Shown piece after piece: positions 10,788 through 63,552 of a DNA stretch of 64,000 nt (the stretch's first letter is position 1; each line of letters opens with the position of its first letter). Origin of the DNA: Tolypothrix sp. PCC 7910 (GTDB lineage: Bacteria > Cyanobacteriota > Cyanobacteriia > Cyanobacteriales > Nostocaceae). Under the pieces are notes generated by a model. It ran no database searches. It had not been told where the DNA came from and was given only the letters and a program-made list of their open reading frames with translations. A program made the translations under genes and the position numbers. The stretch spans positions 4,775,501-4,839,500 of the forward strand of contig NZ_CP050440.1 of NCBI RefSeq assembly GCF_011769525.1, written 5' to 3'.

Positions 10788-11921
10788 TTAAATCAACCAG
10801 CCTTTTAAACGCTTGGCTATATGTGGACGGCGTAATTTTCGCATCGCCTTACTTTGAATTTGGCGCACTCGTTCGCGGGAAAGGTTGAACATATTGCCAA
10901 CTTCTTCTAACGTGCAGGGTTCGCTGGTTGTTAAGCCGTAACGCAGAGAAATTACGTCCTTTTCTCTGGGGGTTAAAACATCACCCAAAACTTCCCAAAT
11001 CTCCTGACGCATCATGTTTTCATTCATTTTGGCTTCTGGAGATTGGTTATCTTCATCTTCCAGTAAGTCCATCAATTCCGTGTCTTCTTCTTTACCTACA
11101 CGGTGGTTGAGGGAAAGTGCTTGTCGCCGCAGTTGTTGCAATTGGCGTAGTTGCTGCACACTCATTTCCAAAGCTTCTGCCATTTCTGCTTCGGAAGGAT
11201 TGCGGGAAAATTTCTGTTTGAGTTCGCGTTGTGCTTTTTTGAGTTTATTAAGTTTTTCAACTATATGGATTGGTAAGCGGATTGTGCGCGCATCATTAGC
11301 GATCGCTCTAGTAATCGCTTGTCTAATCCACCAGTAGGCGTATGTGGAAAATTTATATCCTTTATCTGGATCAAATTTTTCTGTAGCGCGGTTTAAACCC
11401 ATTGCGCCTTCTTGGATTAAATCTAGAAAAGGCACTCCGCGATTAAGATATCGTTTAGCAATGGAGACGACTAACCGCAGGTTTGAGCGAATCATTTTCC
11501 GTTTCGCTACTCTACCTTGATATAAGCGACTTTCTAGCTGCTTTTCTGTCATGTCGAACTCGGCAGCTATTTGTGCTTTGGTCGGTTGTTGTCCTAAGTT
11601 TGAGTATAATTTCTCTTGTTTTTCGCGAAATTCTTCTAAAAATCTGACCCTATTTGCTAATTCCACCTCTTCTTCGGCTTTTAGCAAGGGATAGCGCGCC
11701 ATTTCCTTAAAAAATGCGCCCACAGCATCATCATGCTCGGTTTTATTGTATCCCGAAGGGCGGGCTGCCGCCATCTCATCGCCATCGCGTTCCTCCGATT
11801 CCAGTGGTTCTGGAATTGGGGAATCTTCTTCTGCCACTGCTTCTAAAATTTCAAATGATTGTTCTTCATTTTCAGCAGCATTCTCCAGTAGTTCCATTGT
11901 TCCCAATTGAGCAATATTCAT
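10788..11921 (-). CDS. Group 2 RNA polymerase sigma-70 factor
   Basis: 377 residues. An acidic N-terminal stretch is followed by region 1.2 (DAVGAFFKEMARYPLLKAEE), region 2 (SNLRLVVSIAKRYLNRGVPF, LIQEGAMGLNRATEKFDP, YKFSTYAYWWIRQAITRAIA), region 3 and region 4 (LTPREKDVISLRYGL, LEEVGNMFNLSRERVRQIQS). The N-terminus lacks the long acidic start typical of cyanobacterial SigA, so this is one of the non-essential group 2 factors (SigB to SigE type). I cannot assign the letter with confidence. These factors redirect transcription under carbon, nitrogen, light or stress changes. AAAGGAAA lies just before the ATG. The adjoining 830-base upstream region is long and may be regulatory. Confidence 0.93.
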   Translation of the reverse strand: MNIAQLGTMELLENAAENEEQSFEILEAVAEEDSPIPEPLESEERDGDEMAAARPSGYNKTEHDDAVGAFFKEMARYPLLKAEEEVELANRVRFLEEFREKQEKLYSNLGQQPTKAQIAAEFDMTEKQLESRLYQGRVAKRKMIRSNLRLVVSIAKRYLNRGVPFLDLIQEGAMGLNRATEKFDPDKGYKFSTYAYWWIRQAITRAIANDARTIRLPIHIVEKLNKLKKAQRELKQKFSRNPSEAEMAEALEMSVQQLRQLQQLRRQALSLNHRVGKEEDTELMDLLEDEDNQSPEAKMNENMMRQEIWEVLGDVLTPREKDVISLRYGLTTSEPCTLEEVGNMFNLSRERVRQIQSKAMRKLRRPHIAKRLKGWLI

Positions 11922-12751
11922 AACTTTCCTTTAGGGATTGTTGCTTTGTTTGGTACATATTTCAGTGACAGCTGCTTGCTTGAGGCTTGGTAGTTTCCCT
12001 AAGGGACAAATGCACACGTCCGGTAGCAAAACGCAAGTTTATGCTAATTTCTCATTAGAAGTTAGAATCATTGTCTAGCTGTCATTCTTAAGTTCCTGCT
12101 AGATAGATATCATCACAAATACTGGCCTATGCACCCACCAACTTTCTCCTCAGCTCCCCCAACCATATATTCCTCATTCTTTTCTCGATCACCAAATATG
12201 TCAAATGCCCTCAAACTTTCTCAACCTGAACTCATATAAATTTTGCAGCTTGGCATTCCCAAATCTTAAATTTTTATGTAATTTTACAGTTATTTTTATA
12301 AGGTTGGGAGTCATTACCAAAATGTAAATTTTACGGCTGAGTTTTAACTTGTTGACAAATTTTGTGGGCGATACAAAATTAGCAATTTAAAATGCGGAAA
12401 TTTTGTGTTTGATTTGTATAAAAGCATCTCATATATATAAACGAGGTAATATCTATCAATAGGGTGAAAATTCGATACCCTCTTTAGTAGATATAACTAC
12501 TGTTTAGAAAATCGCAGATGAAACGCTTCTTTTAGGTGTGGGGAGTAGCGAATATTTATGGCATCTATAGTTGAGGTGAAATAGGCAAGTGAATTACATA
12601 AGAGGAAACTTACCAAGTCTTATGCGGGATAAAAGTATTGCGATTTACAGTTTATGCCTACAAAATCAAAAAGTTAAATTCTTTGGTAGAAGTTAACTTT
12701 TGTCAAACTAGATTAAAGGCATAGAAAAATCTATCTATTAACACACAACAT
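11922..12751. other. Long divergent intergenic region between sigma factor and priA
   Basis: 830 bases between divergent genes. A TTGACA-like hexamer at about 12353 and AT-rich TATA-like stretches around 12418-12445 are possible promoter parts, but spacing is poor and I do not call a promoter. Only very short reading frames occur. Nothing else recognisable. Confidence 0.45.
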
Positions 12752-16462: not shown

Positions 16463-17329
16463 ATGAAAACCATGAATTTAATGAATGACCAAATTTTAAT
16501 CGAGCAATATATCCAAGGTAAAATTAAACTGGGATTTAGCCATAACTTCCGCATAGAATCTATAGGCGAAACCGTTCAATTATTAACTAAAAATGGCTTC
16601 TTTATCGCCACCACAAACTTAGCAGATGAAACCAGAGTTTTTCAGGTGCGGCAAGAATCTCATCATTGGGAATGTCTTAATCAAATATTGCTCGATAATA
16701 AATTCATGCCAACTATTAAAAGTGGTAGCGGATTATTACAATATGAATATTATCCCCTGCCTAAATGCTACAAAATGCATTATACAGAAGCTTTAGATTT
16801 ATGGAAGTTGTGGCGTTCTCATAGTCATCAAAAAGGGAATAATTGTGAGCAACTAAACTTACTAGTATTGAATAATAATAATTGGCAGAAAATTCAAGAT
16901 ATAGCATTTAGCAGAGAAAGCGTATTTATCAAAACCCCTGCTGATGAGATTGTAGTTGATAACTGCGATCGCGTTATCTGGCTCCTGTATATCCAAGAAG
17001 AACCAGAACTTGCAACTGTAATTCAAACAAGTAAAGTAGTCAAAGAAAATAACTCTCCAAAAATGGTAAAAGAGACTGAATATAAAGCCATTAGTGTAGC
17101 GCAAGATAAACAGCAAAATGATTATCTAGCTTGCGAAACCAATCCATTTATTGCATCTCTAGTATCATCACCTACAGTTACAAGTAATAATATTGTCAAA
17201 CTACATCAAGGAAAACTTTATATCCAAACACCTGAAGGTGAAATTGTAGTAGAAGGTTCTAACCTTAAATTCTGGTTTACTCAACCAGGAACTCAAAATC
17301 TTGTTCCCCAATCTTTAGTAATGCAGTAA
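16463..17329 (+). CDS. Protein of unknown function with a duplicated beta-strand motif
   Basis: 288 residues that I do not recognise. No signal peptide, membrane segment or catalytic motif is visible. The C-terminal half holds two copies of the same motif: VFIKTPADEIVVDNCDRVIW (about 154-173) and LYIQTPEGEIVVEGSNLKFW (about 252-271), both of the form [VL][FY]I-x-TP-x-[DG]EIVV followed by a hydrophobic strand. A weaker relative (FFIATTNLADETRVFQV) lies near residue 46. The duplication suggests a repeated beta-hairpin fold. It ends about 140 bases from the convergent FHA gene. Expression is likely since the frame is long and codon use matches neighbours. Confidence 0.75.
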   Translation: MKTMNLMNDQILIEQYIQGKIKLGFSHNFRIESIGETVQLLTKNGFFIATTNLADETRVFQVRQESHHWECLNQILLDNKFMPTIKSGSGLLQYEYYPLPKCYKMHYTEALDLWKLWRSHSHQKGNNCEQLNLLVLNNNNWQKIQDIAFSRESVFIKTPADEIVVDNCDRVIWLLYIQEEPELATVIQTSKVVKENNSPKMVKETEYKAISVAQDKQQNDYLACETNPFIASLVSSPTVTSNNIVKLHQGKLYIQTPEGEIVVEGSNLKFWFTQPGTQNLVPQSLVMQ

Positions 17330-17472: not shown

Positions 17473-19458
17473 TTATTGTTGTAAGTGTTGAAGATAAAAT
17501 ACGAGCGCCTCTGCTGTGGGTACATTAGTTGCTAGTAAAACTTTATTAATATTGCAGCTCCTCAATAATGCTTCTTCATTGGCTTGGCTAGTCTGAGGGA
17601 TGATGAAATCTCTCAAGAAAATAACTGCTGAGATATCACCAGAGTTAACTAATGTATTAATCGCTTGATAACCTGCAGATATTGCGGCTGGTATTTGCTG
17701 ACTAATGGTGATACCTGCTTGTTCATGCAAAAATTTGCTAATAGATGACCAAGCAATAGTATAATTATGTGCAAAAAACTCTTGATGCTGATTAACAAAT
17801 TCAGCTAACTCTGATTGTTTGCTTTCATGAGCTAAAAGAACTATATTTTTTTGAGCAATTCCTGGAAGAGAATTACTGACAGACGCTTCCTCAGAAGTTT
17901 CCCTATATTCTTCTTCTGATGTGTCATAAATTTCAGCAAAAAGTTGATTAATTGACTCAGATGTTAATAGAGTTAATTCTGAGCTAAAATCAGCTTCTAG
18001 TTCTTCATCTAATAGAGAAGATAGAGCATCCGATTCGCTCACATCGCTGGTATCTTCGGGTAATTTGATAGGAACCGCAACTTCGCTAACTACCCCTGCA
18101 TCATCAGTATTGGTATCCGCATCCTGATTGCTGATCGGTTCTGGTACTTTACAAAATAACCCTGCTGATTCAATCAGCGTTTCGTCTGAGAATATAGCCT
18201 CTTCATTGCTAAACTCGGGAGTAAAACCATCCACAAATTTTGGAGCTTCGACACCACCAATATCAACTTTAAAATCATCTTCGATTACTTCATCACTTAT
18301 ATGTGGTGGGACTTCAATGACTATATTTCGTGGTTGTTGAAATACACTACGTGGTTGTACAATCGTCAATTCTTTCGGAATTTCTGCATCCCAATCTATA
18401 TCTTGCTCGGTGATCTCTGAAGAAGTTTCGCTTACCACTTCTGCTGATTGCCGGAATTTATCACGCGGTTGTACGTCGGTAAAATCTTGCAGAATTGGCA
18501 TTTCTAAATCGAAAAAATCATTTTTATCATCTGGAGCAACTTCATTCAATTCCTCTACTAGTGGACTCAATTTCTCACGTGGCTGTACAATCGTCAATTC
18601 TCTCGGAATTTCTGCGTCCCAATCGATATCTTCAATGTTTATCTCTGCAGGAATTTCGCTGACAGCCTCTGGTACTGATTCATTTAAATCTTGTGGCTGT
18701 ACAAAAGTAACTTCTTCTAGAAAAGGTGTAGGTACATCAACATCTACATTATTAACCTCTGCAGAAATTTCTTTTACTACCTCTGGTACTGGAGACATTA
18801 AACCCTGCAGCTGCACAACGGTGATTTCTTCTATAACTGGTTTAGCAGCATCAGCGTTTAGATCGCTTACAGATGGGGTAATTTCATTTACTACAGGTAT
18901 ATTTTCAATAACCTTTTCTTGTGCATTAATTTCTGATTCTAGTTCTGAAGTTTCCATTTCGCCTTTATCTGCACTAAATGCTTCAGCCGATTCAGAGCTT
19001 AAATCATGGGAAACTTTGCTATTTACTTTTGCTGCGGGATTAGCAACATTAATATTGCCGAGATTTTCATTTACTCGCCAACCAGCAAACAGTGTCGGAT
19101 CGATAGTCCTAAATACCGTCACTGGCAATTGTTGAGGTGCAGGAATAATATCTTCCACAGTCATCACGTAATCACCAATGCGGATAATGTCTTTATCCTT
19201 CAACTGGACTGGGACATTTTTTTTAGCCAATCTCCCGTTAATAACTGAACCATTTCTACTTCCAAGGTCGCAGAAGTAGTAATTACCATTGTGAGCAAAA
19301 AATTTACCATGTACTCTGCTCACATCAGGACTGTTTAAGACTAAATGAGAATCGGGAGAACGACCAATTAAGCATTCTCCTGTCGGTGCAGTTGCTAATG
19401 CTAGATCAAGTTCGTTAACTTCATCTGCTGCTAGTGAATAGTTAACTTTTATTTTCAT
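17473..19458 (-). CDS. FHA-domain protein with C-terminal methylglyoxal-synthase-like domain
   Basis: 661 residues. An FHA domain (about 20-100) is clear: GECLIGRSPDSHLVLNSPDV, SRVHGKFF, LGSRNGSVINGR, IRIGDYVMTVED; FHA binds phosphothreonine. Residues about 190-430 are an acidic linker with degenerate repeats (two near-identical DIDWDAEIPRELTIVQPR units plus FTDVQPRDK, VTFVQPQD and ITVVQLQG). Residues 538-661 align along their whole length with methylglyoxal synthase: NIVLLAHESKQSELAEFV, ISAVIFLRDF, EEALLRSCNINKVLLATNVP, TAEALV. Compared with E. coli MgsA, His19 and Asp91 are kept (His544, Asp617), but Thr45, Ser65, Asp71, His98 and Asp101 become Trp, Ala, Tyr, Ser and Asn, so enzymatic activity is unlikely. 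Probably a ligand-sensing signalling protein; function unknown. Confidence 0.85.
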   Translation of the reverse strand: MKIKVNYSLAADEVNELDLALATAPTGECLIGRSPDSHLVLNSPDVSRVHGKFFAHNGNYYFCDLGSRNGSVINGRLAKKNVPVQLKDKDIIRIGDYVMTVEDIIPAPQQLPVTVFRTIDPTLFAGWRVNENLGNINVANPAAKVNSKVSHDLSSESAEAFSADKGEMETSELESEINAQEKVIENIPVVNEITPSVSDLNADAAKPVIEEITVVQLQGLMSPVPEVVKEISAEVNNVDVDVPTPFLEEVTFVQPQDLNESVPEAVSEIPAEINIEDIDWDAEIPRELTIVQPREKLSPLVEELNEVAPDDKNDFFDLEMPILQDFTDVQPRDKFRQSAEVVSETSSEITEQDIDWDAEIPKELTIVQPRSVFQQPRNIVIEVPPHISDEVIEDDFKVDIGGVEAPKFVDGFTPEFSNEEAIFSDETLIESAGLFCKVPEPISNQDADTNTDDAGVVSEVAVPIKLPEDTSDVSESDALSSLLDEELEADFSSELTLLTSESINQLFAEIYDTSEEEYRETSEEASVSNSLPGIAQKNIVLLAHESKQSELAEFVNQHQEFFAHNYTIAWSSISKFLHEQAGITISQQIPAAISAGYQAINTLVNSGDISAVIFLRDFIIPQTSQANEEALLRSCNINKVLLATNVPTAEALVFYLQHLQQ

Positions 19459-19864
19459 ATTAATTTTCTGTTATTTTTATTAATTTCTGCCACCCAACAC
19501 TGACGGGTTTAATGCTCTAAATTTAAAATAACATCTGTGTGAGCGATGGACATGGTAACAATAAAGTCTATCTGCTCATGGAGATTTATTTCTGATGAGT
19601 GATGGAATATAGGGTATTGATGATTAGTGACTGTGCTTAGTTCCCTTGATTTCCCTTGTTCCAATTCCATTATTACGTAAACGCAAAAGCGCGATCGCAC
19701 CCAGCAAACAGTGCTAAGCCAGAAAACAGCAAATTCAGCAGACTACTACCCCAGGTAAGTAACTGCAGAACATTTTCATCATCAAAAATACTTCCTAAGC
19801 TGCAGAGATTTGCTTAGGTCGCTCTTTCACCTTGTCCCTTTCCCCTTTCCCCTTTTCCCAGTCC

Positions 19865-21652
19865 TTACTTCCCAAGACAGTCATCACCACAGGTAACAAT
19901 TACTGGTTGTTGATACAAGGGTACAGTAAATGTCACTGTCGAACCCAGTCCTTCGCCTAAGCTGTAAAAATTGACTTCACCACCCATTGCTTCTACCAGC
20001 TTTTGAGATATAGCCAGTCCTAAACCAGTTCCCCCATACTGTCGGGTACGGGAACCATCAACTTGAGAAAATAATTGAAATAGTTTATCTTGCTTATCTA
20101 AAGAAACACCAATACCTGTATCTGCTACGCGTACTTTTACCATACCAGGATATTGCTGTTCCTGGAATTTAGCCTTTTTAATTACAATATCAGCACTGAT
20201 AGTAATACCACCTTCTTGAGTAAATTTAATTGCATTACCTACCAAATTCAGCATTACTTGTAACAGTCGTTGGTAGTTACCTTGAACAATTATTTCATCA
20301 GAAGTGGGGGGCATTTGCATCTGGAAGCTGAGGTTTCTCATCTCGGCTTGAGGACGCATGAAACTTTCTACGTCGTTAAATAACTCAGCCAATTGCACAG
20401 GAGTACAATCAAGCTCCATTTTACCTGCTTCAATTTTGGCAATATCCAAAATATCGTTGATGATATTCAGCAGGTGGATTGATAATTGATGTGCTTCTAA
20501 CAAAAACTGATTTTGTTCTTCTGGATCATCTGCCATTCCCTCCAGAATCAGCTTTAAAAATCCGATCATCCCATTTAGGGGAGTACGAATTTCGTGGGAG
20601 ACATTAGCTAGAAATTCACTCTTGAGGCGGGAAGCATCTTCGGCTTTTTGACGCGCTACTTCCAATTCTTTGTACAAAGTAGCATGAGCGATCGCAGTCC
20701 CTAACTGATCCGCTACTTCTTTGGCTAGCTCGATTTCTGCATCTGTCAGCGGGTAGCATTCATCTCGCAAATTCAACGCCACCAAACCATTTGCTTGGTC
20801 TTGATAGGATGTCGCCACCACCAAAATTTTCTGGTTGGGGCATAGACTAGAGCTTGGTGCTTGCACTACTATCGGTTCCAGGGTATCCACCGCCTGAGCA
20901 AAAGCAGGTTCAGCCGCTAAATCTATATCTGAACCCAACAGAGATTTGCACTCTGGCTGGTGATACTCTGCGATTACCCGTACTTTTTGGCTAGAAGGCT
21001 GGTAAGGACAAATAATACAGCGCTCTAGCCGCAGTACTTTTCCCAAACTATCAACTGTTTGTTGCCAAATAATGTCTATATCCAGGTTGCGACGAATATT
21101 TTTGGTAATTCGGTTCACCAGTTTTTGATGCTGCTGTGAGCGCACAGCCAACTCTATCTGTGTAGGTGTTTTGGCAATTACATCTACTTTATTGATGTTG
21201 ACTTTCGCTTGCAGTAACCGTCCCATCACCAAAACTGTAGTAGCCGCTTTACCCAATTGCGGCATAATCGGAGTGATTACCAACTCCAACTCAAATAATT
21301 CCTGCCCATAACTAAACCAGCATTGCAATTTTTCGGGCACCAAATTTGTCAAAATCCGGTGTAACCGTTCCAAATAAGCCACATTATCCACTGGGACAAA
21401 GTTAGCTTCCTCATTAAACTCATCAACTATCTGCTCAGGATTTAACCCAAGGATTTCACTGTGCTGCCAATAAAAATTCAGGTAACGTCCTGACCCATCT
21501 TGTGTATATACCAACTCGGCTCCTAGAGTTGGTAACATATAGTCTGTCTGATGATTAATAGAGTTGCGATTCTGGGAGAATAAGTTGGGCAATTGCGAAT
21601 GGGCAGTAATAGTCATTATCGAGTTGGATATACGATTAGCAGCCGACAACAT
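19865..21652 (-). CDS. Sensor histidine kinase, PAS-like/GAF/HisKA/HATPase
   Basis: 595 residues with no membrane segment. An N-terminal PAS-like part (about 45-160; YLNFYWQHSEILGLNPEQIV) is followed by a linker, a GAF domain (about 195-330; LRLERCIICPYQ and LVALNLRDECYPLTDAEIEL), HisKA with His353 in FLANVSHEIRTPLNGMIGF, and an ATPase with NLVGNAIKFTQEGG, VADTGIGV and YGGTGLGLAISQKLVEAMGG. No receiver domain is attached and no response regulator gene lies nearby, so its partner is elsewhere. A Cys pair (CIICPY) in the GAF domain could take part in redox or metal sensing, but this is speculation. Confidence 0.9.
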   Translation of the reverse strand: MLSAANRISNSIMTITAHSQLPNLFSQNRNSINHQTDYMLPTLGAELVYTQDGSGRYLNFYWQHSEILGLNPEQIVDEFNEEANFVPVDNVAYLERLHRILTNLVPEKLQCWFSYGQELFELELVITPIMPQLGKAATTVLVMGRLLQAKVNINKVDVIAKTPTQIELAVRSQQHQKLVNRITKNIRRNLDIDIIWQQTVDSLGKVLRLERCIICPYQPSSQKVRVIAEYHQPECKSLLGSDIDLAAEPAFAQAVDTLEPIVVQAPSSSLCPNQKILVVATSYQDQANGLVALNLRDECYPLTDAEIELAKEVADQLGTAIAHATLYKELEVARQKAEDASRLKSEFLANVSHEIRTPLNGMIGFLKLILEGMADDPEEQNQFLLEAHQLSIHLLNIINDILDIAKIEAGKMELDCTPVQLAELFNDVESFMRPQAEMRNLSFQMQMPPTSDEIIVQGNYQRLLQVMLNLVGNAIKFTQEGGITISADIVIKKAKFQEQQYPGMVKVRVADTGIGVSLDKQDKLFQLFSQVDGSRTRQYGGTGLGLAISQKLVEAMGGEVNFYSLGEGLGSTVTFTVPLYQQPVIVTCGDDCLGK

Positions 21653-30113: not shown

Positions 30114-31967
30114 CTATTCTATGTTTCCACGGCGCTGTACCTTAGAAGTGCTATCTATATAAAACGCGCCGAGATTATTACCGCTTAAATCGCAGTTTTC
30201 CACTGTACCCAAACCACTATCGTGGACATAAACGCCGCGTCCCTTATTCTGATTGATTTTACAGCGTTGAATTATAGCATTACCATTTACTCTAATTTCT
30301 ACACCTGATAAATCATGACCTAAGATTTCGCAATCTTCCACTGTGGCTTGTCCATCCTCATAAACCAGAACTCCGCCTTGTTTGCCATTATGAAATTTGC
30401 ACCTTTGGATTACAGCATTGCTATTATCCTTAATTGCTATGCCTGATAAACCATTACCGAAGATATCGCAGTCTTGTACTGTTCCGCGGCTGTTTTTTTG
30501 AAAAAAGATTCCTGCTTGTGCGCCATCGTGGATTTTACACTGTTGGATAATGGGATTAGCTGTTGCACCGATAACACTGACGCAAGAAAGGGAATCGGAA
30601 GTAATGTCGCATTCAGCTAAGGTTAATTGACCTTGAGGAATGTCTACAGCAAAGAAATTGTTATTCTTTTTTCCTGCTACACCACGTAAAGTTAAACCTC
30701 GGACTTCCGCTTGATTTGTTTGCATAACAATGCAATTTGAGTTTGCACTCTCAATCACAATGTTAGATACAGGCCCATCACCAATAATCTTGATTGGCTT
30801 GTCAATGATTAAACTTTCTTGGTAAAAACCTGGATTTACCAAAATCCGGGTACCAGGTTGAGCATTTTTAATTGCTTCACTAATAGTTTTAAAGTCACCC
30901 AATCCATTACTAGAAACAGTTAGAGTCGTTTTGTTTTTAGTAAAAAATGTATATAAACCAATTGGTATAGCTAATCCAATGCTACCAAAACCTAGCATTT
31001 GCACTACACGCCTTCTAGGCCATTTGGGTGGTGCTAATGGTGGCGGTGGCGGTGGGGGTTGTAAACTTTGGTCGATTTGGTCTAATCGTTGTAAAATTTC
31101 CTGAGTATTCGCTGGTCGGTGACCGGGTAAATGCGCCATCATTTGGTCGATTAAATCTGCCAAAAGTGGCGAAATGTGAGGCGCATAACTCCGCCAGCCC
31201 ATCTCATTGGTGTAAGAATTATAAATTGCTGGGTCAGTAGGTTGTTTACCTGTGAGTAAATAAACAAATGTGCGTGCCAAAGCAAAGAAATCGGACTGAA
31301 GTACAGCCTGACCGTTCATTTGTTCGAGTGGTGTGTAACCTGCGGAAATAATTCCTGTTACCTGACCTTGAGCCTGTGCGAAATAATAAGTTTGTGTGAG
31401 TTCTCTAGCTGTACCAAAATCAATTAATGCTAATTCCCCAGAACTCGCTCTTAGCATAATATTAGGTGGCTTGATATCCCGATGGAAAAAGTTTTGTTTG
31501 TGTACGCAATCGAGAATCGTTACTAATTCCCGAAACCATTGCAGCGCCAAATGTTGATCAATCGGTCGCATCCCCCGATTTTCCATATATTTCTGCAAAT
31601 CCATCCCCACAATTTTTTCCATGACAAAACAATGGCTGGGGTTTTGGCTGTTTCTGGGAAAATAAACAAAGTAAGCATCGCGCTCAACTTTGGGAATACC
31701 AGGGTGATTAAGTTTACTTAAAACTTCTGCTTCTTGCTGAAATAATTCTATTGCTTTTTGATGATTGTTTGTGAGAATTTTAATCACTTTCGGCGTGTTA
31801 GTGCGAACTTCTATCGCCTCAAAAGTGACTGCAAAACCACCACCGCCTAACTGACGCACGACACGATAACGGCCTTGTAGCAGTAGTTCTGAGCCGCAAC
31901 TAATACAAAATAGTTCATCATTACTATTCTGTGGGTTTGTGCATTGAGGATTGATGCAGAAGCTCAT
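30114..31967 (-). CDS. Serine/threonine protein kinase with N-terminal zinc ribbon and C-terminal beta-helix
   Basis: 617 residues. A short zinc-ribbon-like start with two Cys pairs (CINPQC and CISCG) leads into a Hanks-type kinase domain (about 33-300): GRYRVVRQLGGGGFAVTFEA, catalytic loop FHRDIKPPNIML, DFGTARE. A proline stretch and one membrane segment (VVQMLGFGSIGLAIPIGLYT, about 325-345) follow. The outer part (about 350-617) is a right-handed parallel beta-helix of about 22-residue turns such as VQDCDIFGNGLSGIAIKDNS and VEDCEILGHDLSGVEIRVNG. The kinase is thus membrane-anchored with an extracytoplasmic pectate-lyase-like sensor or binding domain. Substrates are unknown. Confidence 0.9.
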   Translation of the reverse strand: MSFCINPQCTNPQNSNDELFCISCGSELLLQGRYRVVRQLGGGGFAVTFEAIEVRTNTPKVIKILTNNHQKAIELFQQEAEVLSKLNHPGIPKVERDAYFVYFPRNSQNPSHCFVMEKIVGMDLQKYMENRGMRPIDQHLALQWFRELVTILDCVHKQNFFHRDIKPPNIMLRASSGELALIDFGTARELTQTYYFAQAQGQVTGIISAGYTPLEQMNGQAVLQSDFFALARTFVYLLTGKQPTDPAIYNSYTNEMGWRSYAPHISPLLADLIDQMMAHLPGHRPANTQEILQRLDQIDQSLQPPPPPPPLAPPKWPRRRVVQMLGFGSIGLAIPIGLYTFFTKNKTTLTVSSNGLGDFKTISEAIKNAQPGTRILVNPGFYQESLIIDKPIKIIGDGPVSNIVIESANSNCIVMQTNQAEVRGLTLRGVAGKKNNNFFAVDIPQGQLTLAECDITSDSLSCVSVIGATANPIIQQCKIHDGAQAGIFFQKNSRGTVQDCDIFGNGLSGIAIKDNSNAVIQRCKFHNGKQGGVLVYEDGQATVEDCEILGHDLSGVEIRVNGNAIIQRCKINQNKGRGVYVHDSGLGTVENCDLSGNNLGAFYIDSTSKVQRRGNIE

Positions 31968-62820: not shown

Positions 62821-63552
62821 ATGAAACTTAACTTCGCGGGTCTTAGCGATCCGGGACTTATTCGTTCTAATAACCAAGATGCTTACTATATCGACCCAGA
62901 GAAACGATTTTGTATCGTTGCTGATGGGATGGGTGGTCATGCAGGCGGAGAGGAAGCTAGTCGCATCGCTACGCAGCAAATTCAAGCTTATTTAGCAGAA
63001 AATTGGCAAACTTCTCAGTCTGCTCAAGAATTACTAGTACAAGCTTTGTGGCGTGCTAATGAGGCAATTTTGCAGGATCAGCAAAATTCCCCCGAACGCG
63101 CTGATATGGGGACAACGGCTGTCGTTGTGGTTTTCCGGGAATCTGAGTCTCCTTGGTGCGCTCATGTTGGCGACTCTAGGCTTTATCGCTGGCGCGGCTC
63201 CCATTTAGAACAAATTACAGAAGATCATACTTGGGTGGCTCGGGCTATTAAACTGGGCGATATTACTTTTGAAGAAGCGCGGGTTCATCCCTTTCGCCAC
63301 GTTTTGTCACGGTGTTTAGGGCGCGAGGACTTACACCAAATTGACGTACAACCAATAGATCTGATTGTAGGCGATCGCTTACTTTTATGCAGTGATGGTC
63401 TCACAGAAGAATTGGCCGATCAAAAAATAGCGGACTGTCTGCAAGATAACTCTGTCCTAGATAAGGCTGCGTATTCACTAGTTGAGGCCGCTAAAGCTCA
63501 TGGTGGACACGATAACATCACAGTTGCACTCGTTGCAGTCGAGGATAATTAA
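62821..63552 (+). CDS. PP2C-type serine/threonine phosphatase (PphA/Stp type)
   Basis: 243 residues forming a minimal bacterial PP2C without added domains. Metal-binding Asp residues lie in [37 protein letters not shown] and [22 protein letters not shown] and THP-like [12 protein letters not shown] are also in place. It resembles cyanobacterial PphA, which dephosphorylates the PII signal protein, and Stp enzymes paired with Hanks kinases; sequence alone cannot choose. It starts 17 bases after the ABC1 kinase gene and is very likely cotranscribed with it. Confidence 0.95.

Follow-up and report, generated by a model that had tools for sequence, protein, structure and literature searches.

True methylglyoxal synthase (MGS) is a hexamer, and the MGS-like domain of carbamoyl-phosphate synthetase (CPSase) is non-catalytic. 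In the FHA proteins GarA and OdhI the threonine motif is ETTSVFR. In the T6SS, Fha binds a phosphothreonine of TssL (PMC3953482); and a thylakoid-anchored contractile injection system (CIS) has been described in Anabaena (PMC8894136), with no mention of FHA, methylglyoxal, kinase or "phosphorylat" found in the main text of that paper. A 2026 abstract (PMC13314943) describes the trigger of CIS firing as unclear. Literature searches found no paper in which "FHA domain" and "methylglyoxal synthase" occur together, nor one that has "FHA domain" and "cyanobacteria" as well as "contractile injection system"; without "cyanobacteria" the search matched a single paper, a review of the T6SS.

The gene analysed here, FHA-MGS, is located at 17473..19458 on the minus strand of the window, the whole stretch of 64,000 nucleotides of Tolypothrix sp. 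PCC 7910 DNA that was analysed. It is a real ORF with an ATG start and encodes 661 amino acids, arranged as an N-terminal FHA domain, a long acidic repeat linker and a C-terminal MGS fold. An earlier note on the window had proposed an FHA domain joined to an MGS-fold domain without catalytic residues, and this is borne out by the PF00498 and TIGR00160 matches and the residue comparison given below. We read FHA-MGS, with a probability of about 0.6, as an adaptor that reads phosphothreonine and arose as a regulatory component of a distinct kind of cyanobacterial CIS, with the pseudo-MGS domain docking or oligomerising.

The FHA domain covers residues 26-102 (19153..19383, minus strand) and was matched by PF00498 at residues 30-95 (E 1.5e-17; 64.2 bits, above the 20.7-bit cut-off) and by PF16697 at residues 26-102 (E 5.6e-8). 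It carries GRS at 32-34, SRVH at 47-50 and SRNGS at 67-71, which we take to be the phosphothreonine-reading positions. Identity as T6SS TagH or T3SS YscD was rejected, the similarity being confined to the FHA domain; the TagH model TIGR03354 scored 54.9 bits against a cut-off of 120.25. Behind the domain lies the threonine motif TVFR at residues 114-117 (19108..19119, minus strand), which is conserved among relatives: 48 of 53 proteins have T[VIL][FVY][RKSH] directly behind the FHA domain, 10 of the 63 having been left out of the threonine motif counts for want of GRS within their first 60 residues. GarA and OdhI likewise have an FHA domain beside such a motif, but in FHA-MGS the motif comes after the FHA domain and leads into repeats and a pseudo-MGS domain, and the NCBIfam OdhI model scored only 27.7 bits, far below its cut-off of 200. 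The "repeat linker" of the earlier note proved to hold five T-x-V-Q-[PL]-[RQ] motifs (18349..18822, minus strand), beginning at residues 213, 251, 289, 327 and 365 and thus spaced exactly 38 residues apart in all five copies. A looser form of this motif occurred 142 times in the 53 relatives, compared with 9.5 times in shuffles.

The MGS-like domain, which has lost its catalytic residues, covers residues 536-655 (17494..17853, minus strand). It was matched by TIGR00160 of NCBIfam (E 9.1e-18, 64.6 bits, under the 146.9-bit cut-off) and by a second MGS family model (60.6 bits, also below its cut-off of 84 bits), and it was not reported in a Pfam PF02142 search; a sequence search of the PDB found solved MGS chains, the best being 2xw6 (E 8.3e-16). 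On the genome of Tolypothrix sp. PCC 7910 itself, PF02142 found only two other MGS domains, presumably carB and purH judging by frame length, while TIGR00160 found FHA-MGS and a stretch with E 0.18 inside a carB-like frame of 1100 residues. As there was no TIGR00160 match over the cut-off, no ordinary mgsA was found in this genome.

A first AF2 model, for which the alignment held just four close rows, reached a pLDDT of 56.8 and was discarded as poor. The model of residues 530-661 used here had an input of 64 rows, viral contigs having supplied 61 MGS relatives (out of 80 viral-contig loci), and reached a pLDDT of 88.9 and a pTM of 0.86. In a Foldseek comparison with the PDB the best 26 matches were all MGS (query-normalised TM 0.80-0.87), so that the segment for which the earlier note had suggested a structure comparison gave an MGS fold and not an unrelated one. 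Chains of CPSase came next (TM 0.65-0.70); that allosteric domain shares the superfamily fold but is the weaker match. Because true MGS sequences dominate the alignment, the model serves to check consistency and is no independent proof, and the predicted MGS fold is carried by the sequence matches rather than by the model.

FHA-MGS and the MgsA proteins of E. coli, Bacillus subtilis and Thermus are alike in fold, align end to end, and share H19, D91, R107 and the TN motif; they differ in that the pseudo-MGS domain is fused behind an FHA domain and linker, scores below both MGS family cut-offs, and has D71, H98, D101 and most phosphate-site residues replaced. We take Asp71, His98 and Asp101 of MgsA to be catalytic, and T45, T48, S65, G66 and K23 to form the phosphate site. 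In the window protein, compared with E. coli MgsA, the replacements are Thr45 to Trp, Ser65 to Ala, Asp71 to Tyr, His98 to Ser and Asp101 to Asn, and the equivalents of His19 and Asp91 are retained, all exactly as the earlier note had named them. Sixty-three FHA-MGS domains were aligned with E. coli MgsA (L035-L037 were dropped as duplicates of L078-L080). H19, D91, G70, T118 and N119 were kept in 63/63 and R107 in 61/63. Position 71 was Tyr in 62 and His in one; position 98 was Gly, Ser, Asn or Glu, and position 101 Asn, Ser or Thr, in all 63. Position 45 was Trp in 45 domains and kept as Thr in 9; S65 was kept in 12, G66 in 4, T48 in 1 and K23 in 51. Position 102 was newly fixed, or nearly so, as Glu (62/63) and position 109 as Cys (63/63). 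The pattern is that of a predicted pseudo-active site, in which a family-wide loss of catalysis, not due to random decay, was followed by new constraint.

The same table bears on whether the protein is still an enzyme, either a weak MGS or one with new chemistry through Y71, E102 and C109. The retention of H19, D91 and R107 and the three other fixed or nearly fixed residues would fit this, but D71, H98 and D101 are each replaced in 63/63 domains and the scores lie under the MGS family cut-offs, and we regard it as very improbable. An adaptor gated by a metabolite, whose pseudo-MGS cleft binds a small ligand and whose FHA arm reports it, comparable to the MGS domains of CPSase with their allosteric ligands, is an unlikely but more serious alternative. 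The five invariant residues, together with Y71, E102 and C109, are what would be expected of a retained pocket, and other cyanobacterial MGS domains are joined to sensors, namely cyclic-nucleotide-binding domains (L019, L009, L028) and EF-hands. However, the idea of a metabolite reporter is weakened because the phosphate site is lost, with only K23 widely kept, and the CPSase domains are the weaker fold matches. A combination, in which the pseudo-MGS pocket reads a stress metabolite, the FHA domain reads phosphorylation, firing needs both and orphan copies are re-used for other control, we hold to be similarly doubtful.

The distribution of FHA-MGS was surveyed with an HMM built from seven MGS domains of this type. 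Of 217 genomes in the same cyanobacterial family, 92 gave a match of at least 150 bits; five additional matches all scored 88.3 bits or less, and the two of them that were fetched are EF-hand-MGS proteins. In a survey of the order (388 genomes), 27 matched at 1e-30, of which G173 and G507 are by sequence of the cyclic-nucleotide-binding (cNMP) type, leaving 25; G161, G164 and G402 lie outside the family. In a survey of the phylum (386 genomes), eight matched at 1e-28, six being FHA-MGS type, all within the family, and the remaining two being by sequence an MGS-kinase type (G013) and a cNMP type (G153). The same genomes recur between the family, chaperone, order and phylum searches. A tree of 136 columns, with 13 of 67 forks drawn open and the duplicates L035-L037 excluded, separated 64 FHA-MGS domains from seven other cyanobacterial MGS domains with support of 100/99. 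The remark of the earlier note that it knew of no described protein with this layout thus stands as far as no paper pairing the two terms was found, but the layout is not a one-off, being carried by 92 of the 217 family genomes. Among ten listed of 13 matching phage records there were matches to the MGS part only, and the 13 matching plasmid records had the MGS part or the FHA part only, except pBOCT2.

Two other kinds of MGS fusion were seen. L131:9730-10554 and L132:9789-10673 encode two EF-hands (by Pfam for L131) and an MGS domain retaining the catalytic residues, possibly a calcium-regulated methylglyoxal synthase; no paper naming EF-hand and methylglyoxal synthase together was found in a literature search. 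Cyclic-nucleotide-binding domains joined to MGS are encoded at L009:90-935, L019:1495-2289 and L028:1048-2016 (by Pfam for L019, by sequence for the others), two of the three being degenerate and one having the catalytic residues.

To examine the gene neighbourhood, 60 loci of the family survey were fetched, and removal of L131 and L132, which are of the EF-hand type, left 58 FHA-MGS loci. CIS tube and chaperone genes lie directly upstream on the same strand in 45 of these 58, and in 44 of those 45 a sheath gene is inside the fetched stretch. The other 13 copies are away from a CIS block, with L081, L111 and L124 scored as not CIS-linked although in each the contig breaks off at the gene or close to it. 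On pBOCT2 of Brasilonema a sheath, three tube and two tail-assembly genes are followed by FHA-MGS, and two copies in G164 likewise share their strand with tube and chaperone genes. When the neighbours were clustered, 45 of 68 loci proved to have a Pvc16-type gene upstream of their sheath gene; on the opposite strand there is a NarL-type regulator in 28/68 and a kinase-like protein in 27/68. The parts of one locus (L106) were identified with Pfam and PHROGs as Pvc16_N, tail assembly chaperones (phrog_508), a CHASE2-Ser/Thr kinase and a WD40 protein. Baseplate genes were present in neighbouring 20 kb stretches in six of ten genomes inspected. The whole CIS of G388 consists, by Pfam, of two eCIS_core, CIS_tube, Phage_base_V, PAAR, gp25, Baseplate_J and an AAA ATPase, followed in order by a Ser/Thr kinase, a Pvc16-type gene, the sheath, two tubes, two chaperones and FHA-MGS. 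In G402, of another family, a sheath, an FHA, an FHA-MGS, a gp25 and a VgrG-like gene all lie within 19 kb. The clusters as named by Pfam are Pvc16/eCIS_core-like. By this gene order, FHA-MGS in the relatives is a CIS gene, conserved as the last of a sheath-tube-chaperone block. As a separate observation, the G402 cluster has a second FHA protein, free of MGS, right after FHA-MGS (L194:8488-9429).

The co-occurrence of the two is in line with this placement: the chaperone was found at 187 bits or more in 80 genomes, all 80 of which have FHA-MGS, compared with 12 of the 137 genomes without that chaperone, although the genomes are related, so that the counts are not independent and kinship would inflate any P value. 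No FHA gene turned up in 16 fetched stretches whose chaperone is more distant, of which 15 have a sheath. This counts against the adaptor reading in that a CIS cluster can exist with no FHA gene at all, and it makes the FHA-MGS adaptor something added to a single CIS subtype. The PpkA/Fha pair of the T6SS resembles this arrangement in that an FHA protein is encoded with a contractile machine, often near Ser/Thr kinases; the machine here differs in being a CIS of the Pvc16/DUF6760/eCIS_core type, and the partner domain in being a pseudo-MGS. The CIS of Anabaena is likewise cyanobacterial, and Tolypothrix sp. PCC 7910 has, from its genes alone, a similar-looking cluster at C1:1.55-1.57 Mb, but this cluster has no FHA-MGS.

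Between the last chaperone and FHA-MGS there is a gap, 142 nt long in 19 of 48 CIS-linked loci, which is occupied by DUF6760 (PF20546, E 4.7e-16); the stop of DUF6760 overlaps the start of FHA-MGS in 25 of 63 loci examined. In two sister clusters (L178, L191) an eCIS_core gene fills the slot behind the chaperones. Such close coupling, the last position in a structural block and the eCIS_core gene in the equivalent slot would also suit a structural component or a cargo of the CIS particle, that is, a cap, anchor, chaperone or delivered protein that the FHA domain merely tethers. Against this, no eCIS_core or tail domain was found in FHA-MGS by Pfam, or by PHROGs in the L106 copy; the FHA domain and threonine motifs are present with kinases nearby, and orphan copies are under selection though the CIS block is absent. 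We consider a structural or cargo part improbable.

The DUF6760 frame was also seen to be shifted by -1 relative to that of the last tail-assembly chaperone, at about 11774-11935 (minus strand) in L133 and in 39 other CIS loci, eight of the 48 having been excluded for long gaps. In 31 of the 40 no ATG, GTG or TTG occurs within its first seven codons. After exclusion of two loci that do not fit the slip pattern, the frame opens right after GCGGGGGAG in 35 of 38 loci and right after GCGGAAAAG in three of 38. Programmed -1 frameshifting is known in phage tail chaperones, and the CIS chaperone is a candidate for it on the basis of these frames.

The adaptor reading that we favour involves a kinase. 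Ser/Thr kinase genes were found in 23 of 48 CIS-linked loci, compared with one of 18 neighbouring stretches of 20 kb taken as controls, six of which had CHASE2-only or kinase-like matches that were not scored as kinases; in the other 25 CIS-linked loci a kinase was not seen, some of the stretches being short. Of 65 proteins with an MGS domain of the FHA-MGS type (63 FHA-MGS and the two EF-hand proteins L131 and L132), 27 carry the motif T-x-[FYVI]-Q-[PL]-[RQ]; so do six of 30 kinases, from few genera, and five of 1200 other ORFs, one of which is the window's own FHA-MGS, missed by its label. Five of the six motif-bearing kinases belong to CIS-linked loci, where they precede the sheath gene on the same strand, and the sixth is encoded near the Mojavia orphan. 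Since it rests on six of 30 kinases, the sharing of the motif is minor evidence. Tolypothrix sp. PCC 7910 has a homologue of the linked kinase at C1:6035892-6037664 (61% identical over residues 1-571), with motifs that are similar but not matching.

The window copy itself is an orphan, which is why membership of a CIS operon was invisible from the window sequence. The FHA-MGS HMM found a single place in this genome, and BLAST of the 20 kb around it (L047) found no CIS gene, the sole trace being a DUF6760 relic. In the whole genome no chaperone of the FHA-MGS-linked type was found, and the one sheath match is of a different type, in a cluster 3.2 Mb away (C1 1549000-1571000; L045, L046), where this match is under the Pfam cut-off and the rest comes from reading ORFs. 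The decayed relic (19455..19604, minus strand) has an internal stop, and its TGA overlaps the ATG of FHA-MGS; its alignment score was 76, compared with a shuffled maximum of 18.5. The 150 bases preceding FHA-MGS were identical at 114 of 141 aligned bases to those of a CIS-linked copy from the same genus (L082). Three more orphans of the window lineage have relic scores of 65 to 82 and the orphan of G279 has a weaker one of 30 (shuffles 15 or less), while the scores of the G280, G161 and G195 orphans were not above shuffles. In the tree the orphans are scattered at several places among CIS-linked copies, and the window lineage adjoins CIS-linked members of its own genus.

Compared with G208, dN/dS was 0.08 for the FHA domain, 0.28 for the linker and 0.20 for the MGS domain, on which grounds we rejected a neutral remnant and conclude that the orphan copy still does something. 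Against the closest relative, L035, the MGS domain gave a dN/dS of 0.8 from very few changes (dN 0.010, dS 0.013). The window copy is thus, as read from its sequence, a presumptive fugitive from a CIS operon, kept under purifying selection with the operon fossil attached. Two further states were seen elsewhere: a second FHA-MGS orphan in G402 is split over two frames (L195:8494-9620) and G148 (L008) retains the FHA part alone, and this orphan seems to be decaying in that genus.

A partner local to the window was also considered. The upstream neighbour is a histidine kinase with GAF, HisKA and HATPase domains (19865..21652, minus strand), found as well beside the orphans L035 and L036; the convergent neighbour is a hypothetical gene (16463..17329, plus strand) with no family over cut-off, which lies beside orphan copies and has homologues in seven loci of the neighbour clustering, some being one genome twice. 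Both neighbours are thus seen with orphan copies, and neither was adopted as the partner. The window further encodes a fusion of a Ser/Thr kinase with a right-handed beta helix (30114-31967) and a PP2C phosphatase (62821-63552).

For the adaptor of the CIS we propose the following course. A nearby Ser/Thr kinase would phosphorylate the threonines of the T-x-Φ-Q-P-R and ETV(F/V)R motifs on the adaptor and/or the kinase, and the FHA domain would then bind the phosphorylated motif, within one molecule or between molecules. The pseudo-MGS domain would make no methylglyoxal; it may act as a docking or oligomerising module and relay the switch to the assembly or firing of the CIS. Together, the kinase, the threonine motifs and the FHA domain would form a phosphothreonine switch for the CIS, like PpkA/Fha in the T6SS. 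In Tolypothrix sp. PCC 7910 the CIS block of the FHA-MGS-linked type is gone, with the adaptor retained along with a close kinase homologue elsewhere on the chromosome. The signalling adaptor proposed in the earlier note is plausible. The role of the pseudo-MGS domain is the least certain part, for which docking or oligomerising is our first guess and ligand sensing the second.

FHA-MGS is a concrete, conserved candidate for a CIS regulator, accompanied by kinases encoded close by and by a motif that is probably phosphorylated, and its hosts are cyanobacteria that can be cultured and in some cases transformed. It represents a pseudoenzyme apparently recruited into a phage-derived machine, and its gene an escape from an operon with the operon fossil still attached. 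It suggests how cells may turn a phage-tail-like injection machine on or off.
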